A stretch of 16,337 nt of DNA from an uncultured Candidatus Saccharibacteria bacterium (GTDB lineage Bacteria > Patescibacteriota > Saccharimonadia > Saccharimonadales > Saccharimonadaceae), in NCBI GenBank assembly GCA_937990205.1, contig CALKRO010000059.1, forward strand, positions 1 through 16,337, given 5' to 3'. The position numbers and the translations under genes were made by a program. The notes beneath the pieces are model-generated. The model saw only the letters and a list, made by a program, of their open reading frames with translations, did no database searches and was not told the origin of the DNA. Below are positions 135-16,337 of this stretch, one piece after another. Position 1 is the stretch's first letter. Each line of letters begins with the position of its first letter.

Positions 135-470
135 TTACACCCAACTCTCACCATCAAGTTCTTTAATGAAGCCGTCCATGAATTCTTTCGCCAAAACTTG
201 TGTAGGCTCGTAATCTAAGTTCTCTGGGTAAAGTGATTTTCTCTTCCAGTCTAGCGCTACATAAAGAGAAGTGGTTAAGCTGCAATCTTTTTCATCACTA
301 AAGTCTAATGGTTCACCAAAATTTTCATCAACAAAATCAGCGTATTTATCAATAATTGGCTTGAGTTTCTCTAACTCAGAAAGTTTGGAAATCGGACGCA
401 TTCTATCGATGATTTCATGTCCATCTTCGATGACCTTATTAATTAATTTTGCCTTTTCTAAGTAATCCAT
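135..470 (-). CDS. Hypothetical acidic protein, 111 aa
   Basis: The frame starts at the ATG at 470-468 and ends in TAA at 137-135. An in-frame TTG at 485 could add five residues, but ATG is preferred. No signal peptide or membrane segment is visible. The protein is soluble-looking, charged and mostly helical, with a long N-terminal helix (about residues 1-45) and a stretch around residues 65-85 with SLTTSLYVALDWKRKS. The start lacks a Shine-Dalgarno. A TATATT six bases upstream of the ATG (482-477 on the minus strand) could give a leaderless message, but the region is too AT-rich to be sure. It is transcribed divergently from gatC. No family is recognised and no function is assigned. Confidence 0.6.
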   Translation of the reverse strand: MDYLEKAKLINKVIEDGHEIIDRMRPISKLSELEKLKPIIDKYADFVDENFGEPLDFSDEKDCSLTTSLYVALDWKRKSLYPENLDYEPTQVLAKEFMDGFIKELDGESWV

Positions 471-5472: not shown

Positions 5473-6948
5473 ATGTCTAAACTCAAAACAATTTTGAAGA
5501 GACCAGCGCGGGCGTGGCAGCGCGTTTTTGGTTTCTTACCGATTATCTCGCTTGGTGGCACAGTATTTATTCTCGGCACCTTATCTATCGCCCCGAATTT
5601 TATGAATTTCGCCCACGCGGAAGAAAAACCAGCTCTAAAGCCAAGTGATATTAATCTGTCTATCAGCGTCGACGAAACGTTCCATAAGTTTAATGATGTC
5701 TATCTTACTTCGGACGGGGTTGAACATGAAGATCAAAATAATATTACTTTTAAACCTACCGTAAAGACTAATAATCCTGCAGGTTACAAAGTTTACTTCT
5801 CGGACGTTGATGAAGATACTAACATGCGCAGTGTTGATGCCACGGTGACCGACTCTATTCGTTCTGCTGCTCCTTCTGATTTTGAGAACGGCCAGCCAAA
5901 AAACACCACTGACAACTATTGGTATTGTGGTATCCTGCAGGTTCCAGACACTATCACTGGGGAAGCAGAAAAAACCACTTCCACTAATAATGATTTGTCA
6001 ATCCCAGTCAGAAGTCACCCACGATTAATTGATGAAGTTAAGTATATAAAAACAAACGATAATAAAAATAATGGGATATACTGTAATATCTCGATCAATA
6101 AGCAATTAGCCACATCGACCTATGTTGGCAAAATGATTTTTAGTACCATAGCCAATACTAATAATTTAAAACCTGCCACTTTGAAAGATGGATATTCGGC
6201 CTTCCGTAGAATTCCGAATAACTATGCAGGTAAAAGGGAATTTAAGAGTTTTAAGTATGCCGTACCAACTCCAGCAGATTTTTCTACTGAAGTAAAAAAT
6301 GATGAATCGATTGCTTCGAGCGTAAAACCAGACTATAAGTATAGTGGTATGCCTGGGCCAGCCTGTCCTCCTGTGATGGGTTTGGGATTCAATATGTATA
6401 ATATTACTGCCAATAATACGGAAGATGAAGAGCCAGTATTAGTCTGGGCCTCCAGTTGTGATGATCGAGGATTACGTTGGTGGTCTCCATCTGGAACTTT
6501 GAAGCTCGGTGAAAATTGTTCTAATTTCTTCTCTACCGCCAATGCGCCACGTTTTGATAACCTTGATCTTTCTGGCGTCGATATCTCAAATTGCAAGAAT
6601 ATGGAATCTATGTTTGAACGCACCGATGAAGGATTTAAGGAAATTAATTTCGGATATAACAAATTTTCTTCAGAATTATCTAACACTAAGAATATGTTCA
6701 AGGGGAATAGCAAACTTGAGAGAATACATACAACTACTGACCTTGATTTAACTTATGTGGCAGAAAGTGAAGGAATGTTTGACGGCTTAAATGAAATATC
6801 AGGTTCATATAGAATGGAAAATGGGGAATGCAATGGAATGCCATTTATTAGCGCTCACACTGACGCCCGTATGGCAAAAACGCACGGTGGATATTTCTTC
6901 CGTGATTATCCAGGTAAGGAAATGTGTGATAAGGTTATTCATCTTTAA
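5473..6948 (+). CDS. Secreted surface protein with degenerate BspA-like (DUF285) repeats
   Basis: This is a 491-residue exported protein. The N-terminus is basic (residues 1-18), followed by a hydrophobic stretch at about 21-40 and a likely signal-peptidase site after A49 (AHA before EEKP). Residues about 55-230 look beta-rich and share a layout with the larger BspA protein in this window: a TNNPAGYKVYFS segment here against NSNDKSGYRIIIS there, then a YVGKMIFSTIANTN-like strand near the end. Residues about 357-440 hold roughly three weak BspA/DUF285 units (LDLSGVDISNCKNMESMF, then SNTKNMFKGNSKL, then EGMFDGL). There are eight cysteines (152, 204, 298, 329, 349, 374, 453, 485) in the exported part, which could form disulfides. 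No LPXTG or other anchor is seen. A role in surface display or host contact is inferred. Confidence 0.9.
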   Translation: MSKLKTILKRPARAWQRVFGFLPIISLGGTVFILGTLSIAPNFMNFAHAEEKPALKPSDINLSISVDETFHKFNDVYLTSDGVEHEDQNNITFKPTVKTNNPAGYKVYFSDVDEDTNMRSVDATVTDSIRSAAPSDFENGQPKNTTDNYWYCGILQVPDTITGEAEKTTSTNNDLSIPVRSHPRLIDEVKYIKTNDNKNNGIYCNISINKQLATSTYVGKMIFSTIANTNNLKPATLKDGYSAFRRIPNNYAGKREFKSFKYAVPTPADFSTEVKNDESIASSVKPDYKYSGMPGPACPPVMGLGFNMYNITANNTEDEEPVLVWASSCDDRGLRWWSPSGTLKLGENCSNFFSTANAPRFDNLDLSGVDISNCKNMESMFERTDEGFKEINFGYNKFSSELSNTKNMFKGNSKLERIHTTTDLDLTYVAESEGMFDGLNEISGSYRMENGECNGMPFISAHTDARMAKTHGGYFFRDYPGKEMCDKVIHL

Positions 6949-7049: not shown

Positions 7050-9152
7050 ATGGCAGAAGCTACACATGATTTATCAAAATTGCGCAATATTGGTATTATT
7101 GCTCATATTGATGCAGGCAAGACCACGACTTCAGAAGCAATTCTTTATCGTACTGGCTTGAAGCACAAAATCGATCTCGTCAAGGGTGACACCGGTGGTG
7201 CTACTACTGACTGGATGGAACAGGAAAAGGAACGTGGTATTACCATTACTTCCGCAGCTGTTACCGCCACTTGGAAAGGTCACAAAATTAACATTATCGA
7301 TACCCCGGGCCACATCGACTTTACCGCTGAAGTAGAACGTTCTCTTCGTGTGCTCGATGGTGCCGTCACCGTTTTCGACGGTAAGATGGGTGTCGAAGCT
7401 CAATCTGAAACTGTTTGGCGCCAAGCTACTAAATACGGCGTCCCACGTCTTTGTTTTATTAACAAAATTAACCAAATCGGTGGTGACTTTTATAAGTCTC
7501 TCGACTCTATTCACAAGCGTCTCTCCAAGAATGCTTTCGCTATTCACCTTCCAATTGGTTTCGAAAAAGACATCTGTGGTGTCGTCGACCTTATCGATAT
7601 GAAGGCTTACACCTACAAGGAATACGCTGACCATTCTTTGACCGTTGGTGAAATCCCAGCTGATATGCTCGACAAGGCTAAAAGAGCTCGTGCTCTTCTC
7701 GTTGAAGAAGCTGTGGCTGCCGATGAAGATTTGATGAACAAGTACTTCGCCGAAGGTGAAGAAGCTATCACCGAAGCTGAACTCAAGGCTGCTCTTCGTA
7801 AGCGTGTGCTTGACGGTGACTTCTTCCTCGTGACTGGTGGTGATGGTCGTGGTGTGATCGTTGAAAAAGTTCTCGACCTCTGTGTTGATTATCTTCCTTC
7901 ACCTCTTGATCGTGATCTCGGCCAAACCGTTGGTACTGATCCAAAAACTGGTGATAAGGTTATCCGTAAGGCTTCTGTCACTGAACCTCTCACCGCTCTT
8001 GCTTTCAAGATCGCTTCTGACCCATTCGTCGGTAAGCTCGTCTTCGTCCGCGTCTACTCTGGTGTTTTGAAGTCCGGCTCTTATATCTTGAATGCTACTA
8101 CCGGCAATAAGGAACGTGTTGGTCGTCTCGTCCGTATGTTCGCTGATAAGCGTGAAGAAATTTCTGAGGTTGCCGCTGGTGACATCGCTGCTATCGTTGG
8201 TCTCAAGGAAACCACCACTGGTACCACTCTTTGTGATCCAGCCCACCCAATTCACCTTGAATCTATCGAATTCCCAGAACCACCTGTTTCTATCGCTGTT
8301 GAGCCTAAGACTAAGGCTGACCAGGAAAAAATGGGTCTCGGTCTCGCTAAACTTGCTGAAGAGGATCCAACTTTCCGTGTTCACACCGATGAAGAAACTG
8401 GTCAAACCATTATTTCTGGTATGGGTGAGCTTCACCTTGAAATCATTATCGACCGCTTGAAACGTGAACATAATGTGGAAGCTAATACTGGTGCTCCTCA
8501 GGTTGCCTACCGTGAAACTATTCGTGGTACCGCTGAAGCTCAAGGTAAGCACATTAAGCAGTCCGGTGGTCGTGGTCAATACGGTGACGTTTGGATTAAG
8601 TTTGAGCCAAATGAATCTGGCAAGGGCTTCGAATTCATCGATATGATTAAGGGTGGTGTGGTGCCTCAAGAATACCGCAAGCCAGTTCAACAAGGTGTTG
8701 AAGAAACTCTTAACGGTGGTGTGATTGCTGGGTACCCAGTAGTTGATATTAAGGCTACCCTCTACGATGGTTCCTACCACGATGTCGACTCTTCCGAGCT
8801 TGCCTTCAAGCTCGCCGGTAGCTTGGCTACTCGTGAAGGTATCAAGAAAGCTAAACCAGTGCTTCTTGAACCATTCATGAAGCTTGAAGTTACTACCCCT
8901 GAAGAATTCATGGGTGATGTGATCGGTGATATTAACTCTCGCCGTGGCCGTATCGACTCTATGGAAGATATTCAAGGTGGCGCCAAGCTTATTACTGCTT
9001 TCGCTCCACTTGCTAACCTCTTCGGTTACACTTCGGATCTCCGCTCCATGAGCCAGGGCCGTGCCGCTTCTTCTATGGAGCTCGCACAGTACGAGGAAGT
9101 ACCACCTAACGTTGCTCAAGAAATCATCGAGAAGCGTAATACTTCTAAGTAA
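7050..9152 (+). CDS. fusA: Elongation factor G (EF-G) with altered G4/G5 motifs
   Basis: EF-G is the GTPase that drives tRNA-mRNA translocation on the ribosome and, with RRF, ribosome recycling. The 700 residues cover all five domains. G1 is AHIDAGKT (18-25), G2 ERGITITSA (61-69), G3 DTPGHID (84-90). Later hallmarks include [62 protein letters not shown] and [15 protein letters not shown]. Two guanine-recognition motifs are unusual. G4 is NKIN (138-141), not NKxD, and G5 is TGGDGRG (262-268), where GSAFKNKG is expected. Everything else suggests a working translocase. Codon use is strongly biased (GGT, CGT, GCT, GAA), as in highly expressed genes. It is a single-gene unit; the usual neighbours rpsL, rpsG and tuf are not adjacent. 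Confidence 0.97.
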
Positions 9153-9295: not shown

Positions 9296-10789
9296 TTAAT
9301 TTCGTCTTACGACTACATTTGCATCGATATCCTTAAACAAATCATCGCGATTAAGGTTAGACTCATGTCCAACCAGAGCATTAGTGCGCTCCACTACTCG
9401 CTTGATTAAATCCACCGAATCTTCACGCACATAATACAATGCACGGTATTTATCGTTAGACGGATCATAGTTGGGGCTACTTTCGACGAAACGCTTTAAC
9501 TGCATTTCTGCATAGAAACTCGAAAGTTCTGGTGACAGCAATAAAACATTACCATCATTAGAAAAATAGGGTCCACCATTATGATCAATATCCGTGAGCT
9601 TCATCTTGTGCATCACGTGATAAAAATCTTCCGGTCTCGCATCGGTTCTTCCGTAGCCAGAATTTGGGAAAAGTCGGTCATCTTTCACATAGTAGACTTC
9701 AATCCCATTTACCCCAATACCGTAAAACAGCCCGCTTATATGTCGGCGTGAATCAATGCGGTAGGGTACCAGACGTTTTTCGAAATCTGCCATGTTGCCA
9801 AGATCGTTTATCTGCTTACCCTCCGCTCCATAATTCGCATCAAACCGAATCATTAGCTTCGGATTCGTCTCATTAATGAAAGTATAGACGTCTAATGCCG
9901 GGAAGCTATCTGCCAATCTGAGATTAAAACCGTTATCTCTCATATAGCCAACCAGGTCAAACTCGCCAAATCTAGTGTAAGTCTTCGGGTCATTCTTCTG
10001 GTGGGTCGGGAGTGGCTCAGAGGCTTCTTGTTTGATACGCCTCAGCATGTACTCCGCTGTGAAAGAAATAGTGTCCGGTTCGTCTGGCTCAATCGGCTCC
10101 ATGGGATCAAGCTTAGTAGTATGAAATTCATCCACTAAGTTCTGCACCAGGAACTGCGTATAATTAATTCCGTCAGCTCCGGTAAAGTTTGGTGTGCGTC
10201 CGTTCAGATAGGGGTCCAGGAATCCCGCATCAGTACCGTCCTTGATATAAGTCGGAATATTCCGATAGTGGTAATAGCTATTCTCCCCGGCATCCGTATT
10301 TACTTCGAGCACCGAATTTCCTCTAATACTCTGATTTAAATGCTTCGGGAAGAGAATTACATTACTTGGTACCATAAAATCCGAGATGTAACTGCCAGAT
10401 TGCGACACAAGCTGATCTCTCAGGTCTTCCACTTCTCTGATATTAAACTCAGAAACCATTTGGAATGTGCCTGGGTGCGACCTACTCGGATCGGGATCTT
10501 TTAGTGGTGCTAATCCATAATCATTTCTGGCTGCTCGTCTAGCTTCTAACACGTCAGGGGTGGCATCCCTAATCGGTCCGGTTACTTCGCCGCCACCGAA
10601 TTCGGAAGCATCCACCGCTGCCGTCAGTTGAGCGTCCATCTCGTATGGATTATCGGTTTCTTCCTCATGTTTCACTTCCGCCTTCGCGGTAGTTTCTACT
10701 TCGGAAGTCTCCGGAACTACGGTTTTACTCTGGGCACTGCAAGCAACTAAACCGAGAGCGAGCGACAAAAACAGGAATTGTTTCTTCAT
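9296..10789 (-). CDS. Putative lipoprotein of unknown function, 497 aa
   Basis: The N-terminus is a short lipoprotein signal: MKKQFLFLSLALGLVAC, with lipobox LVAC and the lipidated Cys at residue 17. That is the only cysteine in the protein, which supports lipidation. After it comes an acidic, Thr/Glu-rich linker (about 20-55), then a region without a recognised domain. A Pro-Glu/Asp segment (PMEPIEPDEPD, about 229-239) separates two halves. The second half is rich in aromatic residues (YYVKDD, GPYFSNDGNVLLLSPEL). Two adjacent ATGs are possible (10792 and 10789). The Shine-Dalgarno GGAGG (10800-10796) is three bases from the first and six from the second, so the second was chosen. It is convergent with fusA and divergent from the two-TM gene. 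The function is unknown; substrate binding or surface contact are possible. Confidence 0.88.
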   Translation of the reverse strand: MKKQFLFLSLALGLVACSAQSKTVVPETSEVETTAKAEVKHEEETDNPYEMDAQLTAAVDASEFGGGEVTGPIRDATPDVLEARRAARNDYGLAPLKDPDPSRSHPGTFQMVSEFNIREVEDLRDQLVSQSGSYISDFMVPSNVILFPKHLNQSIRGNSVLEVNTDAGENSYYHYRNIPTYIKDGTDAGFLDPYLNGRTPNFTGADGINYTQFLVQNLVDEFHTTKLDPMEPIEPDEPDTISFTAEYMLRRIKQEASEPLPTHQKNDPKTYTRFGEFDLVGYMRDNGFNLRLADSFPALDVYTFINETNPKLMIRFDANYGAEGKQINDLGNMADFEKRLVPYRIDSRRHISGLFYGIGVNGIEVYYVKDDRLFPNSGYGRTDARPEDFYHVMHKMKLTDIDHNGGPYFSNDGNVLLLSPELSSFYAEMQLKRFVESSPNYDPSNDKYRALYYVREDSVDLIKRVVERTNALVGHESNLNRDDLFKDIDANVVVRRN

Positions 10790-10843
10790 CATGCACCTCC
10801 ATTTTAATGTGCGTAGGATAAAAGTAGCCTAAAAGTTAGCTAT

Positions 10844-11566: not shown

Positions 11567-12751
11567 ATGGCAAATTTCGACCGTTCCAAGCCACACATTA
11601 ACGTTGGTACTATGGGTCACGTTGACCACGGTAAGACTACTCTTACTGCTGCTATCACAGCAGTTCTTGCAAAACGACTTCCATCAGAAGTTAACAAACC
11701 AATCGCGTACGATCAAATCGACAACGCTCCAGAAGAAAAAGCTCGTGGTATTACCATTGCTACCTCTCACCAAGAGTACGAATCAGAAAAGCGTCACTAC
11801 GCTCACGTAGATATGCCAGGCCACGCCGACTACATCAAGAACATGATTACCGGTGCTGCTCAAATCGATGGTGCTATCCTCGTAGTTGCTGCTAACGATG
11901 GTCCACTTCCACAAACTCGTGAGCACGTACTTCTCGCTCACCAGGTGAACGTACCAAAAATCATCGTCTTCCTCAACAAGATGGATCTTGCTGACCCAGA
12001 ACTCGTTGAGCTCGTTGAAATGGATGTCCGTGAACTTTTGAACAAGTACGGCTTCGACGGTGACAACGCTCCAATTATCAAGGGTTCTGCTCTTAAGGCT
12101 CTTGAAGGCGACACCGAAATGGAAGATCGTATCATGGATCTCGTCCACGCTATGGATGAATACTTTGACATCCCTGAACACGATCTTGACAAACCATTCT
12201 TGATGCCAATCGAAGATGTCTTCTCCATCAAGGGTCGTGGTACTGTTGCTACTGGTCGTATCGAGCAGGGTATCGTCAAGATCAATGACGAAGTTGAAAT
12301 CGTTGGTATTCGCCCAACTCAGAAATCAGTTGTTACTGGTATCGAAGCTTTCCACAAGACTCTTAACGAAGGTGAAGCAGGTGACAACGCTGGTCTCTTG
12401 CTCCGTGGTATCGAACGTGAACAAATCGAACGTGGTCAGGTTATTGCTAAGCCAGGTTCTATTACCCCACACACTGAATTCGAAGCTCAGGTTTACATCT
12501 TGAAGAAAGAAGAAGGCGGCCGCCACACCCCATTCTCAAAGGGTTACAAGCCACAATTCTACTTCCGTACTACCGATGTTACCGGTGAAGTCGAACTTCC
12601 AGCTGATAAAGAAATCGTCATGCCTGGTGACACTGTTACCTTCCAGGTCAAGCTTCTTTCAGCTATCGCTATGAACAACAACGACCGTTTCGCTATCCGC
12701 GAAGGTGGCCGTACTGTCGGTTCTGGTGTTGTTACCAAGATTATCAAATAA
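11567..12751 (+). CDS. tuf: Elongation factor Tu
   Basis: EF-Tu delivers aminoacyl-tRNA to the ribosome as a GTP complex. The 394-residue length is standard, with the GTPase domain and two beta-barrels. G1 is GHVDHGKT (residues 18-25), G2 [11 protein letters not shown]3 DMPGHADY, G4 NKMD, G5 GSALK. All guanine-binding motifs are canonical, unlike EF-G in this window. The only notable change is Met where the common form has Cys in DCPGHADY. The later segments [30 protein letters not shown] and [15 protein letters not shown] are typical. Codon use is very biased, as expected for an abundant protein. It is a single-gene unit between its own leader and a UUCG-type terminator. It lies one accessory cassette away from fusA, which suggests a disrupted str operon. 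Confidence 0.98.
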
Positions 12752-13249: not shown

Positions 13250-13277
13250 AAAATCCCAATCTTGAATTGGGATTTTT
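13250..13277 (+). terminator. Intrinsic terminator of rpsJ
   Basis: AAAATCCCAAT (13250-13260) pairs with ATTGGGATTTT (13266-13276) around CTTGA and is followed by another T. It starts 20 bases after the rpsJ stop. Confidence 0.92.
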
Positions 13278-13286
13278 GATTTGTTT

Positions 13287-13316
13287 TACGATAATCTTTA
13301 TGTTAAAATTATCGTA
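13287..13316 (+). promoter_or_regulatory. Extended -10 promoter inside a 9-bp inverted repeat (possible operator)
   Basis: TGtTAAAAT (13301-13309) lies nine bases before the ATG at 13318, giving a leader of about two bases. It is embedded in a perfect inverted repeat, TACGATAAT (13287-13295) and ATTATCGTA (13308-13316), with a 12-base spacer. The half-site centres are 21 bases apart, two turns of DNA, as expected for a dimeric repressor. The repeat covers the -10 and the transcription start. No poly-T follows it, so it is not a terminator. Confidence 0.6.
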
Positions 13317-13317
13317 C

Positions 13318-15801
13318 ATGACGAGCGATAAAAATCAAAAACTGCGAATCACCCGTTCATGGCTGAAAAGTCTCGCCGGCTTTTTTACCCTAACGGCCTC
13401 AATTTTTAGCTTGAACATGATTTTTGCTCCCCAAACTTACGCTCTCTTTATGCCGTCTTTATCTGCGGCTCTTAATCAGTCATCGGCGGTATTTCACGGT
13501 AATGATGATCGCTCCGCGAATCCACAACTTCAGGAAGCGACCACGAAACTAACTGTTAACTCTAACGATAAAAGTGGCTACCGCATCATTATTAGTACCG
13601 ATTCGAATAATACTGCACTTATAAGTCCGAATTCTGCTGTTACTGATAAGATTAGCTCAATTCCAAATGCCGATACTCTAAGTAATTTTCCTGCCAGGAC
13701 CTGGGGCTATAAGATTGATGACGAGACTAATTTTCGCCCGATCGGTTCAGTCGCCAGTCCGACCAATCTTTTTAGCTCTGAAGAAAAAACCGATGGCAAT
13801 GAAGTCAAGAATATTACCATTGGCATGAATTTGGGTACCGATCTTTTGAGCGGTAGTTATAAAAACACACTCATGATTTCGGTTATTTCAAATAATAATG
13901 CCGGTACCAACGCTACGCTCACAAGAGGACCGGATTTAAACCAGAAAATTGCTCGTAGTGCAATCCTTGCCGGCACCAATTTGCATGCTATTAAGGGGTT
14001 CAAGCGAAGCCCGACCGCACCGACGGCTGCCATGAAAACTATCAATATCGAAGATTCTGATGAGTCAAGCTATGAAATTTTAGCTTGGTTTGATCCGGCA
14101 GACAAAACAGTTTACTACTATTGCGAGAATGACCGCGTCTACATGAATGAAGACTCACGTCAGATTTTTAATAACATCCTTAATATTACTGATATTGATT
14201 TGTCTGGACTCGATACACGTTACGTGAAGGATATGTCTTTTATGTTTAATAACGCCAGAAGTGTGGTAAACCTAGATCTTTCTACCTTTAAAACTTCCCG
14301 TGTCACTGCGATGACTAATATGTTTGCCTATATGGGATCCCTGAAAAATCTCAATATTTCTAGCTTCAAAACTAAAAACGTTAAAAGCTTCTCTCGTATG
14401 TTTATGGGTGATTCTTCTTTGCAAAATCTTGATCTCTCGCATTTCGATACCTCTAAAGTTACCGATATGGGCAATATGTTTAGTGGCGCAAGTAATATAA
14501 CGTCACTAGATTTAGGGAATTTTAATACCGCTAATGTTGTTAATATGCAGGAAATGTTTAAGGATTGTGGTAATCTCACTAGTCTGAATGTTTCGAGTTT
14601 TGATACGACTAAGGTCACCAATATGCAAACCATGTTTGGTGGCGCTACCAAGCTCACTAGCCTCGATATCCGTAATTTTGATACTTCTAAGGTCACCAAC
14701 ATGCTCTCCATGTTTGGTAATCTCCGCTCAATGACCGATTTTAAAATTAGTGACAAATTTAAGACTCACAATGTGACAAATATGGCCAGCATGTTTTCAA
14801 ACTGCATCCTTCTGGAGGAGCTTGATCTCTCGAATTTTGATACCAGAAAAGTGATTACTACGAGTGCGATGTTTAGCGGTATGAGTAATGTAAAAAAGAT
14901 TATTTTAAGCCCTAATTTCCAGACTAGTAATGTTATTAATATGAATAGTATGTTTAATAACTGTAATCTATTGCAGGAAATTGACCTTTCGAGCTTTGAT
15001 ACTAGGAAAGTTACCGATTTTACTAATATGTTTAATACCTGCTCGAGTCTCACTTCGCTTGACGTCTCGACCTTTGATACTCGCGAGGCCACCAGTATGG
15101 CTAGTATGTTTAGCGGCATGCTGAATCTCGCCAATCTTAATCTTGGACACAATTTTAATACTTCCAAGGTAAACAGTTTGTATAATATGTTCTTTAATGA
15201 CCGCAAGCTCGTAAGTCTGGATCTTTCGCAGTTTGATACCAGGAATGTGACAAATATGGCATCCATGTTTAGCTATATGTTTGAGTTAAAAAATCTCAAC
15301 ATTTCGTCCTTCGATACCAGCAAAGTAGAATCCATGTATCGTATGTTTTATAGTACTAGTAAGCTCGAAAATCTTGACTTCAGTCATCTTGATACCAGTA
15401 AGGTTCATAATATGCAAGATATTTTTTCCGGTATGGCGGCTTTATCCTCAATCAATCTCGGCGGACATTTTTCTACGGCCAGTGTGACAGATATGCGTGG
15501 CATGTTTACAGATACGAATAGTCTTACCGAACTTGATTTGAGCAATTTTAATACTGCGAAGGTGAATAAATTTAGCAACATGTTTGCTTCCTCGCGCCCA
15601 CTCGAGACTAAATTGGAAAAAATTTACGTCAGTCAAGATTTTAACATTTCTGCTGGTACTGAATTTGATAATGTTTTTCGAAATCAGGTTAAACTGCGTG
15701 GTGGTAATGGTTCCTTCCTTGTAAATCCTGCTTCTGCCGACAAAACTTGGCTTCGCATCGACCGCCCAGGCGCTAAGGGCTACTTCACTCAGAAACCATA
15801 A
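13318..15801 (+). CDS. Large secreted BspA-like (DUF285) repeat protein, 827 aa
   Basis: The start chosen is the ATG at 13318. An in-frame TTG at 13267 lies upstream of the promoter. Residues 8-18 are basic, about 20-37 hydrophobic, with a likely cleavage site after A42 (TYA). Residues about 48-200 form a beta-rich domain resembling the one in the smaller surface protein. A linker segment ILAWFDPADKTVYYYCENDR (254-273) is typical of the part preceding BspA repeats. Residues 289-793 hold 18 clear and one degenerate unit of 24-25 residues with pattern LDLSxFDTSKVTxMxxMFxxxxxL. The C-terminus (SADKTWLRIDRPGAKGYFTQ) is the usual BspA tail. No LPXTG, membrane anchor or lipobox is present, so attachment is unknown. 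BspA-type proteins of other bacteria bind host matrix or cells; adhesion here is inferred. Confidence 0.93.
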   Translation: MTSDKNQKLRITRSWLKSLAGFFTLTASIFSLNMIFAPQTYALFMPSLSAALNQSSAVFHGNDDRSANPQLQEATTKLTVNSNDKSGYRIIISTDSNNTALISPNSAVTDKISSIPNADTLSNFPARTWGYKIDDETNFRPIGSVASPTNLFSSEEKTDGNEVKNITIGMNLGTDLLSGSYKNTLMISVISNNNAGTNATLTRGPDLNQKIARSAILAGTNLHAIKGFKRSPTAPTAAMKTINIEDSDESSYEILAWFDPADKTVYYYCENDRVYMNEDSRQIFNNILNITDIDLSGLDTRYVKDMSFMFNNARSVVNLDLSTFKTSRVTAMTNMFAYMGSLKNLNISSFKTKNVKSFSRMFMGDSSLQNLDLSHFDTSKVTDMGNMFSGASNITSLDLGNFNTANVVNMQEMFKDCGNLTSLNVSSFDTTKVTNMQTMFGGATKLTSLDIRNFDTSKVTNMLSMFGNLRSMTDFKISDKFKTHNVTNMASMFSNCILLEELDLSNFDTRKVITTSAMFSGMSNVKKIILSPNFQTSNVINMNSMFNNCNLLQEIDLSSFDTRKVTDFTNMFNTCSSLTSLDVSTFDTREATSMASMFSGMLNLANLNLGHNFNTSKVNSLYNMFFNDRKLVSLDLSQFDTRNVTNMASMFSYMFELKNLNISSFDTSKVESMYRMFYSTSKLENLDFSHLDTSKVHNMQDIFSGMAALSSINLGGHFSTASVTDMRGMFTDTNSLTELDLSNFNTAKVNKFSNMFASSRPLETKLEKIYVSQDFNISAGTEFDNVFRNQVKLRGGNGSFLVNPASADKTWLRIDRPGAKGYFTQKP
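14182..15696 (+). repeat. Array of 18-19 BspA/DUF285 protein repeats (about 72-75 bp each)
   Basis: The coding repeat is 24 residues, with consensus LDLSxFDTSKVTNMxxMFxxxxxL. Conserved points are the Asp-Leu-Ser, Phe-Asp-Thr, Val-Thr, Met and Met-Phe positions. Units 8, 10, 13, 17 and 19 have one extra residue before the Phe (for example ILSPNFQTSNV and NLGHNFNTSKV) and a more neutral first strand. The DNA copies have drifted and are not identical, so the array is old rather than freshly expanded. Confidence 0.9.
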
Positions 15802-15855: not shown

Positions 15856-16337
15856 ATGATTAGTAACTCTCTTCGGCAAAAACTCGATTTTCTGATTGAA
15901 CGATACCGTGATTTGGTGCCAAACTATGCTTCCGGAATTAGGGGACTAAGTCTTGTTGAGCTTCCAGAGATGGTTTATAACTCGAATGCCATTGAAAACT
16001 CCACACTCACCCTCGAAGATACGGAAGATATTTTGATTCGACATCAAATTCGTACCGATCATCTGATTCGTGAGATTTTTGAAGCGACTAATTTAGCGAA
16101 AGCTATGAAGTTTCTTCTAGATAATCCTGAAACTGAAATCTCTGTGCCACTAATTCTTCAACTTCACAGCATTTTATTGCAAAATATCCGTGATGATGCT
16201 GCTGGTCGGTTTCGCACTAATAAGGAATGGGTGCACGTAGGTAGTCATCTAGGTGCAAACCCGCAATTCGTCCACGGTTTTATGTCGGATTTAGTTGAAA
16301 AATATAACGCGTCAGATGACCAATATTTTCTCGACAA
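15856..16337 (+). CDS. Fic-family protein, class II, N-terminal part (cut by right edge)
   Basis: The frame is open for 160 codons to the window edge. Residues 43-48 read SNAIEN and match the inhibitory motif (S/T)xxxE(G/N) of class II Fic proteins. There an N-terminal helix places a Glu in the active site and blocks ATP use. The region STLTLEDTEDIL after it is typical of Fic_N. Residues 104-120 (HSILLQNIRDDAAGRFR) and 127-138 (HVGSHLGANPQF) match the start of the Fic core and its target-binding flap. The catalytic HPFxxGNGR motif should come about 30-50 residues later, outside the window, so activity cannot be judged. Fic enzymes usually AMPylate proteins. It is transcribed from its own leaderless promoter. 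Confidence 0.88.
   Translation, partial: MISNSLRQKLDFLIERYRDLVPNYASGIRGLSLVELPEMVYNSNAIENSTLTLEDTEDILIRHQIRTDHLIREIFEATNLAKAMKFLLDNPETEISVPLILQLHSILLQNIRDDAAGRFRTNKEWVHVGSHLGANPQFVHGFMSDLVEKYNASDDQYFLD

Follow-up and report, generated by a model that had tools for sequence, protein, structure and literature searches.

Few enzymes are as strongly conserved as elongation factor G (EF-G), which drives movement of the ribosome on the mRNA. The NKxD motif (G4) serves as a fingerprint of GTP binding, its Asp being treated as the determinant of guanine specificity. In canonical EF-G, N1-H and N2-H of guanine donate hydrogen bonds to this Asp. The window analyzed here (the whole stretch of 16,337 nucleotides) encodes an EF-G in which the G4 motif reads NKIN and the G5 motif reads GGDGRG, which raises the question of how guanine is recognized by a factor of this family that has lost the G4 Asp.

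The window EF-G and its G motifs

The host of this EF-G is a Nanosynbacter-like Saccharibacterium, a small oral bacterium. Among the best 120 of 8000 scored database proteins, one carries the name Candidatus Nanosynbacter sp., a genus placed by the NCBI taxonomy in Minisyncoccota, class Nanosynbacteria. The features considered are as follows:

7050 to 9152, forward strand: fusA, elongation factor G (EF-G), 700 aa, five domains, intact
7098 to 7127, forward strand: G1 (P-loop), residues 17-26, canonical
7233 to 7247, forward strand: G2 (switch I), RGITI, residues 62-66, canonical
7299 to 7313, forward strand: G3, DTPGH, residues 84-88, canonical
7461 to 7472, forward strand: G4, NKIN, residues 138-141 (Asn141 is AAC, 7470-7472)
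7836 to 7853, forward strand: G5, GGDGRG, residues 263-268 (Asp265 is GAT, 7842-7844)
11567 to 12751, forward strand: tuf (EF-Tu), identified by translation and EF-Tu NCBIfam models, internal control

The protein scores 1021.7 bits against the TIGR00484 equivalog model, above the curated cut-off of 659.4 and over its full length (residues 5-697 of 700 aligned), and has the Pfam domains GTP_EFTU, EF-G_D2/GTP_EFTU_D2, EFG_III, EFG_IV and EFG_C in this order; it is a family-typical orthologue of canonical bacterial EF-G. It shares with canonical EF-G (TIGR00484) all domains, G1 to G3 and the Asn and Lys of G4, and differs from it in having Asn instead of Asp in G4, Asp instead of Ser/Thr in G5 and a G5 loop shorter by one residue. 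The canonical motifs are equally conserved in EF-Gs that carry Asp in G5 instead of G4 (referred to below as swapped). In the tree set, A18, H19, D21, G23, K24, T25 and T26 of G1 were invariant in 305-306 canonical and 120 swapped rows filled at these positions, RGITI was present in all filled rows (307 canonical and 120 swapped), and so was DTPGH (307 and 122, respectively).

At G4, Asn141 replaces the Asp of the fourth position, and N138 and K139 are retained, as they are in all 123 swapped rows of the tree set; TKIN was seen in one metagenomic protein outside this set. As K139 is present, the loss of the G4 Lys known from SpoIVA is not seen in the window EF-G. At G5, Asp265-Gly266 stands in place of the canonical [ST]A. 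In a phmmer alignment with Staphylococcus aureus EF-G (C-G-T-A), D265 is paired with Thr, G266 with Ala and R267 with Lys, and one residue is missing between G266 and R267, such that the canonical T-A-F-K corresponds to D-G-gap-R; MAFFT alignments of larger sets gave the same register. Because both methods place it there, D265 is assigned to the Ser/Thr column of the canonical G-[ST]-A, which is followed by a one-residue deletion. Swapped EF-Gs of Bacilli, which have no such deletion (C-A-D-A-L-S-N-Q-G), provide independent support for this register. The EF-Tu of the window keeps NKMD and GSALK and is thus canonical.

Both unusual residues are shared by near-identical proteins from other database entries. 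The best 120 of 8000 scored proteins, including that of the window itself, are 99-100% identical; the 12-residue stretch around G4 and VTGGDGRGV occur exactly in 117 of them, and in the remaining three a single residue is changed within G4 or next to it (TKIN in one of them). Asn141 and Asp265 are present in all 120, i.e., in 119 listed proteins besides that of the window, and a base-calling error is therefore excluded. In addition, all 14 loci read under a Saccharibacteria title have NKIN together with GGDGRG. Among 21 related genomes with non-canonical EF-G, no second fusA was found: 20 had one EF-G match (E up to 1e-40), and in the remaining one (G017) the EF-G gene is split across two contigs. 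The window EF-G is an ordinary EF-G and apparently a single-copy one.

A preliminary description of this sequence had reported the same NKIN and GGDGRG motifs and the canonical motifs of EF-Tu, all of which were borne out; two objections that it had raised, a second canonical fusA and a sequencing error at 7470 or 7842, were not encountered in the 21 genomes and the 119 proteins, respectively. Its assignment of D265 to the Ala of GSA and its view that G5 shows no length change need correction, as phmmer and MAFFT both put D265 one place earlier, in the Ser/Thr column, and one residue is deleted after it.

Two EF-G matches were detected in three of 364 matching genomes (G055, G117 and G131). 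A Bacilli genome (G621) has a second, partial canonical EF-G (L322) besides a full canonical one, and G785 has two full-length EF-G matches, of which the one read (L470) is canonical; the extra copies in these two genomes may represent contamination or paralogues. As for the surroundings of fusA, the translation genes of the window are flanked by proteins with DUF285 (BspA-like) repeats at 13267-15801 and 5473-6948 (E 2.7e-91 for the larger protein; the smaller one scored under the family cut-off). A 498-aa protein at 9296-10792 on the reverse strand has, by eye, a lipoprotein-like start and no Pfam match, and positions 15856-16335 contain the start of a Fic-like protein, truncated at the window end and scoring under the family cut-off.

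Complementarity of G4 and G5 across EF-Gs

EF-Gs came from genome contigs and protein searches, supplemented by sampling one phylum (twice), two classes, three orders and one family around the cases. Genomes were covered at the fetched loci and stretches only, Patescibacteria and Bacilli being sampled densely and other groups thinly. The 447 loci and 360 proteins (807 in total) represent 772 distinct sequences, including the divergent paralogue L256 and leaving out PF00009 loci L323-L352, and 767 of them were readable at both sites (five rows were unreadable at G4). Asp was present in exactly one of the two sites in all 767 readable distinct sequences, which is a count of sequences and not of events, as near-identical proteins inflate it. 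A G4 Asp was accompanied by Ser (276), Thr (134) or Ala (8) in G5, giving 418 sequences, and a G5 Asp by Asn (205), Gly (121), Ala (15), Lys (3), Cys (3), Glu (1) or Ser (1) in G4, giving 349; none of the 767 had Asp at both sites and none had it at neither. Among the swapped sequences, L286 was the only one seen to have an acidic residue at both sites (Glu in G4 and Asp in G5). A search for the motif patterns that did not use the alignment gave the same result in 742 of 772 rows and a different one in three, all of which were mis-hits just upstream of the true GGDG; in the other 27, the patterns found nothing in G4 or G5.

In a column screen of the 380-row set, the most frequent letter of each of the eight non-canonical groups was compared with canonical EF-Gs. 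Only at columns 141 and 265 was this letter rare among the latter for all eight groups, the next-best columns reaching five of eight; as these groups were defined by column 141, only column 265 is an independent result. In NKIN-type EF-Gs, Asn is the sole G4 residue and the G5 loop has been reshaped, being one residue shorter, whereas the swapped Bacilli clade has five different letters at the G4 residue and a constant G5 Asp. Because the G4 residue drifts in that clade and the G5 Asp never changes, the constraint seems to have moved with the carboxylate. The swap is not specific to the candidate phyla radiation (CPR), as a lineage of Bacilli has the same change.

A breadth check was made in the phylum of Biostraticola, where all 30 EF-Gs (L485-L514) were canonical. 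Together with 27 further copies or paralogues (L478-L484 and L515-L534), 56 of 57 had the G4 Asp; the exception, L518, is a divergent EF-G-like paralogue with NKME in G4 and Ser in G5, so that Asp is at neither site. Some paralogues in this check had NEMD, NQCD or TKLD in G4, and L523-L525 are, like L518, divergent EF-G-like paralogues (NKME or NEMD in G4).

The change was also looked for in other GTPases of swapped genomes. Searches with PF00009 in six such genomes gave 32 matches, six of which were EF-G. All 24 non-EF-G GTPases that were read (of 26; the other two are in G020) retained NKxD; judged by length and motifs, they are presumably EF-Tu, LepA, TypA-like proteins, IF2 and one Der-like protein. 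Among the proteins read, the change is therefore confined to EF-G.

Origins, probable reversal and apparent recombination

Trees were built with both motifs removed. The 432-row tree comprised all readable loci and 21 of the 360 proteins, with L256 dropped. On the whole-protein tree of this set, parsimony gave ten switches, and all nine supported independent contrasts changed both sites together (sign test p 0.0039). The figure of ten was not accepted at face value, as apparent G-domain recombination inflates it: in the 380-row set, a tree of residues 291-700 alone required 22 switches and the G-domain tree (residues 1-290) only six, a disagreement suggesting that G domains carrying the pair have been recombined among EF-G genes, in both CPR and Bacilli. 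For this reason, the G-domain tree was used for a conservative count, which was six switches in the 380-row set and seven in the 432-row set, one of the seven hinging on the position of L188. Strongly supported contrasts on the G-domain trees (five and four, respectively) were all concordant and too few for p < 0.05. A quick IQ-TREE analysis of 95 rows, consisting of hand-picked event rows and their relatives filled up by diversity, showed nine switches, with six of six supported contrasts concordant (p 0.031). If all branches are treated as equal, the rough chance that six changes at each of two sites fall on the same six of 862 branches is about 2e-15.

By parsimony on the G-domain tree, separate gains were assigned to the NKIN clade, to an NKMA lineage (L187, L451, P0241 and P0242), to an NKMK lineage found in three genomes (L353, L423 and L424), to the Bacilli clade with NKM[G/A/S/C/E], and to L160 with NKMA. 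Within the NKMK lineage, L353 shares 86% identity with L423 and 81% with L424, compared with 70-75% for canonical members of the same order. The swap thus has about five origins and at least one reversion, the direction of gain and return resting on NKxD being taken as ancestral.

The return is represented by L283, which has the canonical pair (G4 Asp and G5 Thr), is nested in the swapped Bacilli clade and keeps the CA-x-AL flank of that clade. Because its G4 flank (windows 126-175) and its G5 CATAL are of the swapped type, reversal by point changes appears likelier than recombination, although window 176-200 is nearer to a canonical relative (0.84 vs 0.72) and the next three windows tie. A different picture was observed in L159, which looks like a mosaic: residues of about 150-275 are nearest to canonical relatives in most windows, and the rest is nearest to the swapped clade. 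A plausible intermediate between the two states is offered by the eight canonical EF-Gs with Ala in G5, a residue one codon step from Asp.

Proposed guanine recognition by swapped EF-Gs

In Ras, the G5 Ser contacts the Asp of NKxD, and in canonical EF-G the Ser/Thr of SA in G5 likewise lies next to the G4 Asp. In a survey of GTP-binding sites, Asp119 of Ras is described as making a dual hydrogen bond to guanine N1/N2, and O6 as being bonded by the main chains of G5 Ala146 and G4 Lys117 (PMC11594714). In the window EF-G, the G4 Asp has been lost (N141) and the adjoining G5 residue has become Asp (D265), the carboxylate of which is most likely placed where that of G4 stood, reached from the other loop. 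Given the sequences themselves, the strict pairing of the two sites, the recurrent switching and a pocket that is otherwise intact, we consider it highly probable that the guanine-reading carboxylate has been re-sited from G4 to the Ser/Thr position of G5 and that GTP specificity has been kept. The geometry and hydrogen bonds are what we infer from this pattern, and the factor would stay GTP-specific through D265. Exactly one Asp may be present because two facing Asps would repel each other and zero Asps would leave the base unread. If the carboxylate of D265 occupies nearly the same place, Gly, Ala and Lys could be tolerated in G4 once G5 is Asp, and a return would require both changes. The compensating re-wiring of base recognition that the preliminary description had put forward is thus strongly supported by the sequence patterns, with linkage in every readable sequence and repeated origins; the co-variation that it proposed to check proved to be perfect, the changes not being scattered.

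The main reason for caution is, by analogy, SpoIVA, an ATPase derived from Era-like GTPases (PMC7952092). As in swapped EF-G, the G4 Asp of SpoIVA is replaced variously and its G5 Ser position is sometimes D; unlike swapped EF-G, SpoIVA has lost the G4 Lys and hydrolyses ATP, its G5 position is usually N, D or S where that of swapped EF-G is always D, and an acidic residue two positions on matters (PMC7952092). Since the SpoIVA G5 Ser position can be N, D or S, a G5 Asp alone is no proof of guanine reading.

It is also conceivable, though unlikely, that D265 is structural only and restores the hydrogen bond between the G4 and G5 loops, with guanine being read by backbone contacts. The bond from the Ser hydroxyl to Asp would then become one from the Asn amide to Asp, consistent with G4 being Asn in all 205 readable NKIN-type (GDG-R) sequences; elsewhere, however, the same G5 Asp occurs with Gly, Ala, Cys or Lys in G4, and Gly or Ala would offer no side chain with which this bond could form. 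Moreover, the Ser-Asp bond seems to be dispensable, because eight canonical sequences carry Ala in G5.

A change of nucleotide specificity, such that XTP, ATP or another nucleotide is preferred or that the factor is promiscuous, seems very unlikely. Such a change has precedents, as substitution of the G4 Asp by Asn turns Ras to xanthine nucleotides (as cited in PMC7952092) and, according to the same paper, ATP use in SpoIVA goes along with a lost G4 Asp and an altered G5. Ras D119N and other NKxN mutants of the xanthine switch have the same G4 change as NKIN, but they are laboratory single mutants, and a compensating G5 Asp is unmentioned in the part available (PMC7952092). An exclusive G5 Asp in all 349 swapped sequences would be unexpected if guanine reading had been abandoned, and the other 24 GTPases read in the six swapped genomes retain NKxD. 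Furthermore, SpoIVA also lacks the G4 Lys (PMC7952092), which is present in every swapped row of the tree set. Seven different residues occur at G4, and the XTP preference that had been suggested for the window EF-G is left unsupported, since G4 may also be Gly, Ala, Ser, Cys, Lys or Glu with the G5 Asp constant, implying that the conserved thing is the carboxylate.

An origin in sequencing error, in misalignment or in a second, degenerate copy has practically no likelihood. Nothing was found in favor of such an artefact, the one-residue shift of the G5 alignment having misled only the preliminary description, and it is refuted by the 119 near-identical proteins sharing both changes, the single EF-G match in 20 of 21 genomes (the gene of G017 being split over two contigs) and the concordant alignment-free check.

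Guanine sites of a related kind have been described before. The so-called D/E plus sites, which comprise 61 of 298 GTP-binding complexes in the PDB and have no NKXD, resemble swapped EF-G in that the carboxylate paired with guanine N1/N2 does not belong to NKXD; they are a survey class, and the available text mentions neither EF-G nor a movement between G4 and G5 (PMC11594714). The principle of NKxD-free guanine sites with D/E from elsewhere is therefore already known from this source. A computational study of EF-G subfamilies reported that G4 NKxD and G5 gSAx are conserved in EF-G II (PMC3150367). In a literature search confined to open-licence papers, which makes for a weak absence, no listed title or abstract opening described a swap of the Asp from G4 to G5, and as far as searched, Asp transfer within one enzyme family is undescribed.

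Taken over the family, it seems likely that the Asp with which translational GTPases read guanine can change its place. In EF-G it would have moved from G4 to G5 on about five occasions in two phyla and returned at least once, with one Asp present in every case and never two, and with G domains of either version apparently exchanged between EF-G genes by recombination. A natural and repeated transfer of this kind would show that a specificity element can evolve, and motif-based annotation or reasoning from Asp-to-Asn changes would misjudge the swapped EF-Gs. Close pairs such as L160 and L289 (87% identical) are ready-made for testing a two-site swap across a fitness valley, and an old question is made testable, i.e., whether guanine selectivity needs the position of the Asp or only that of the carboxylate. 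If the re-siting is true, an overlooked second solution for guanine recognition would exist in a core universal enzyme, and it would be carried by all 14 loci read under a Saccharibacteria title.
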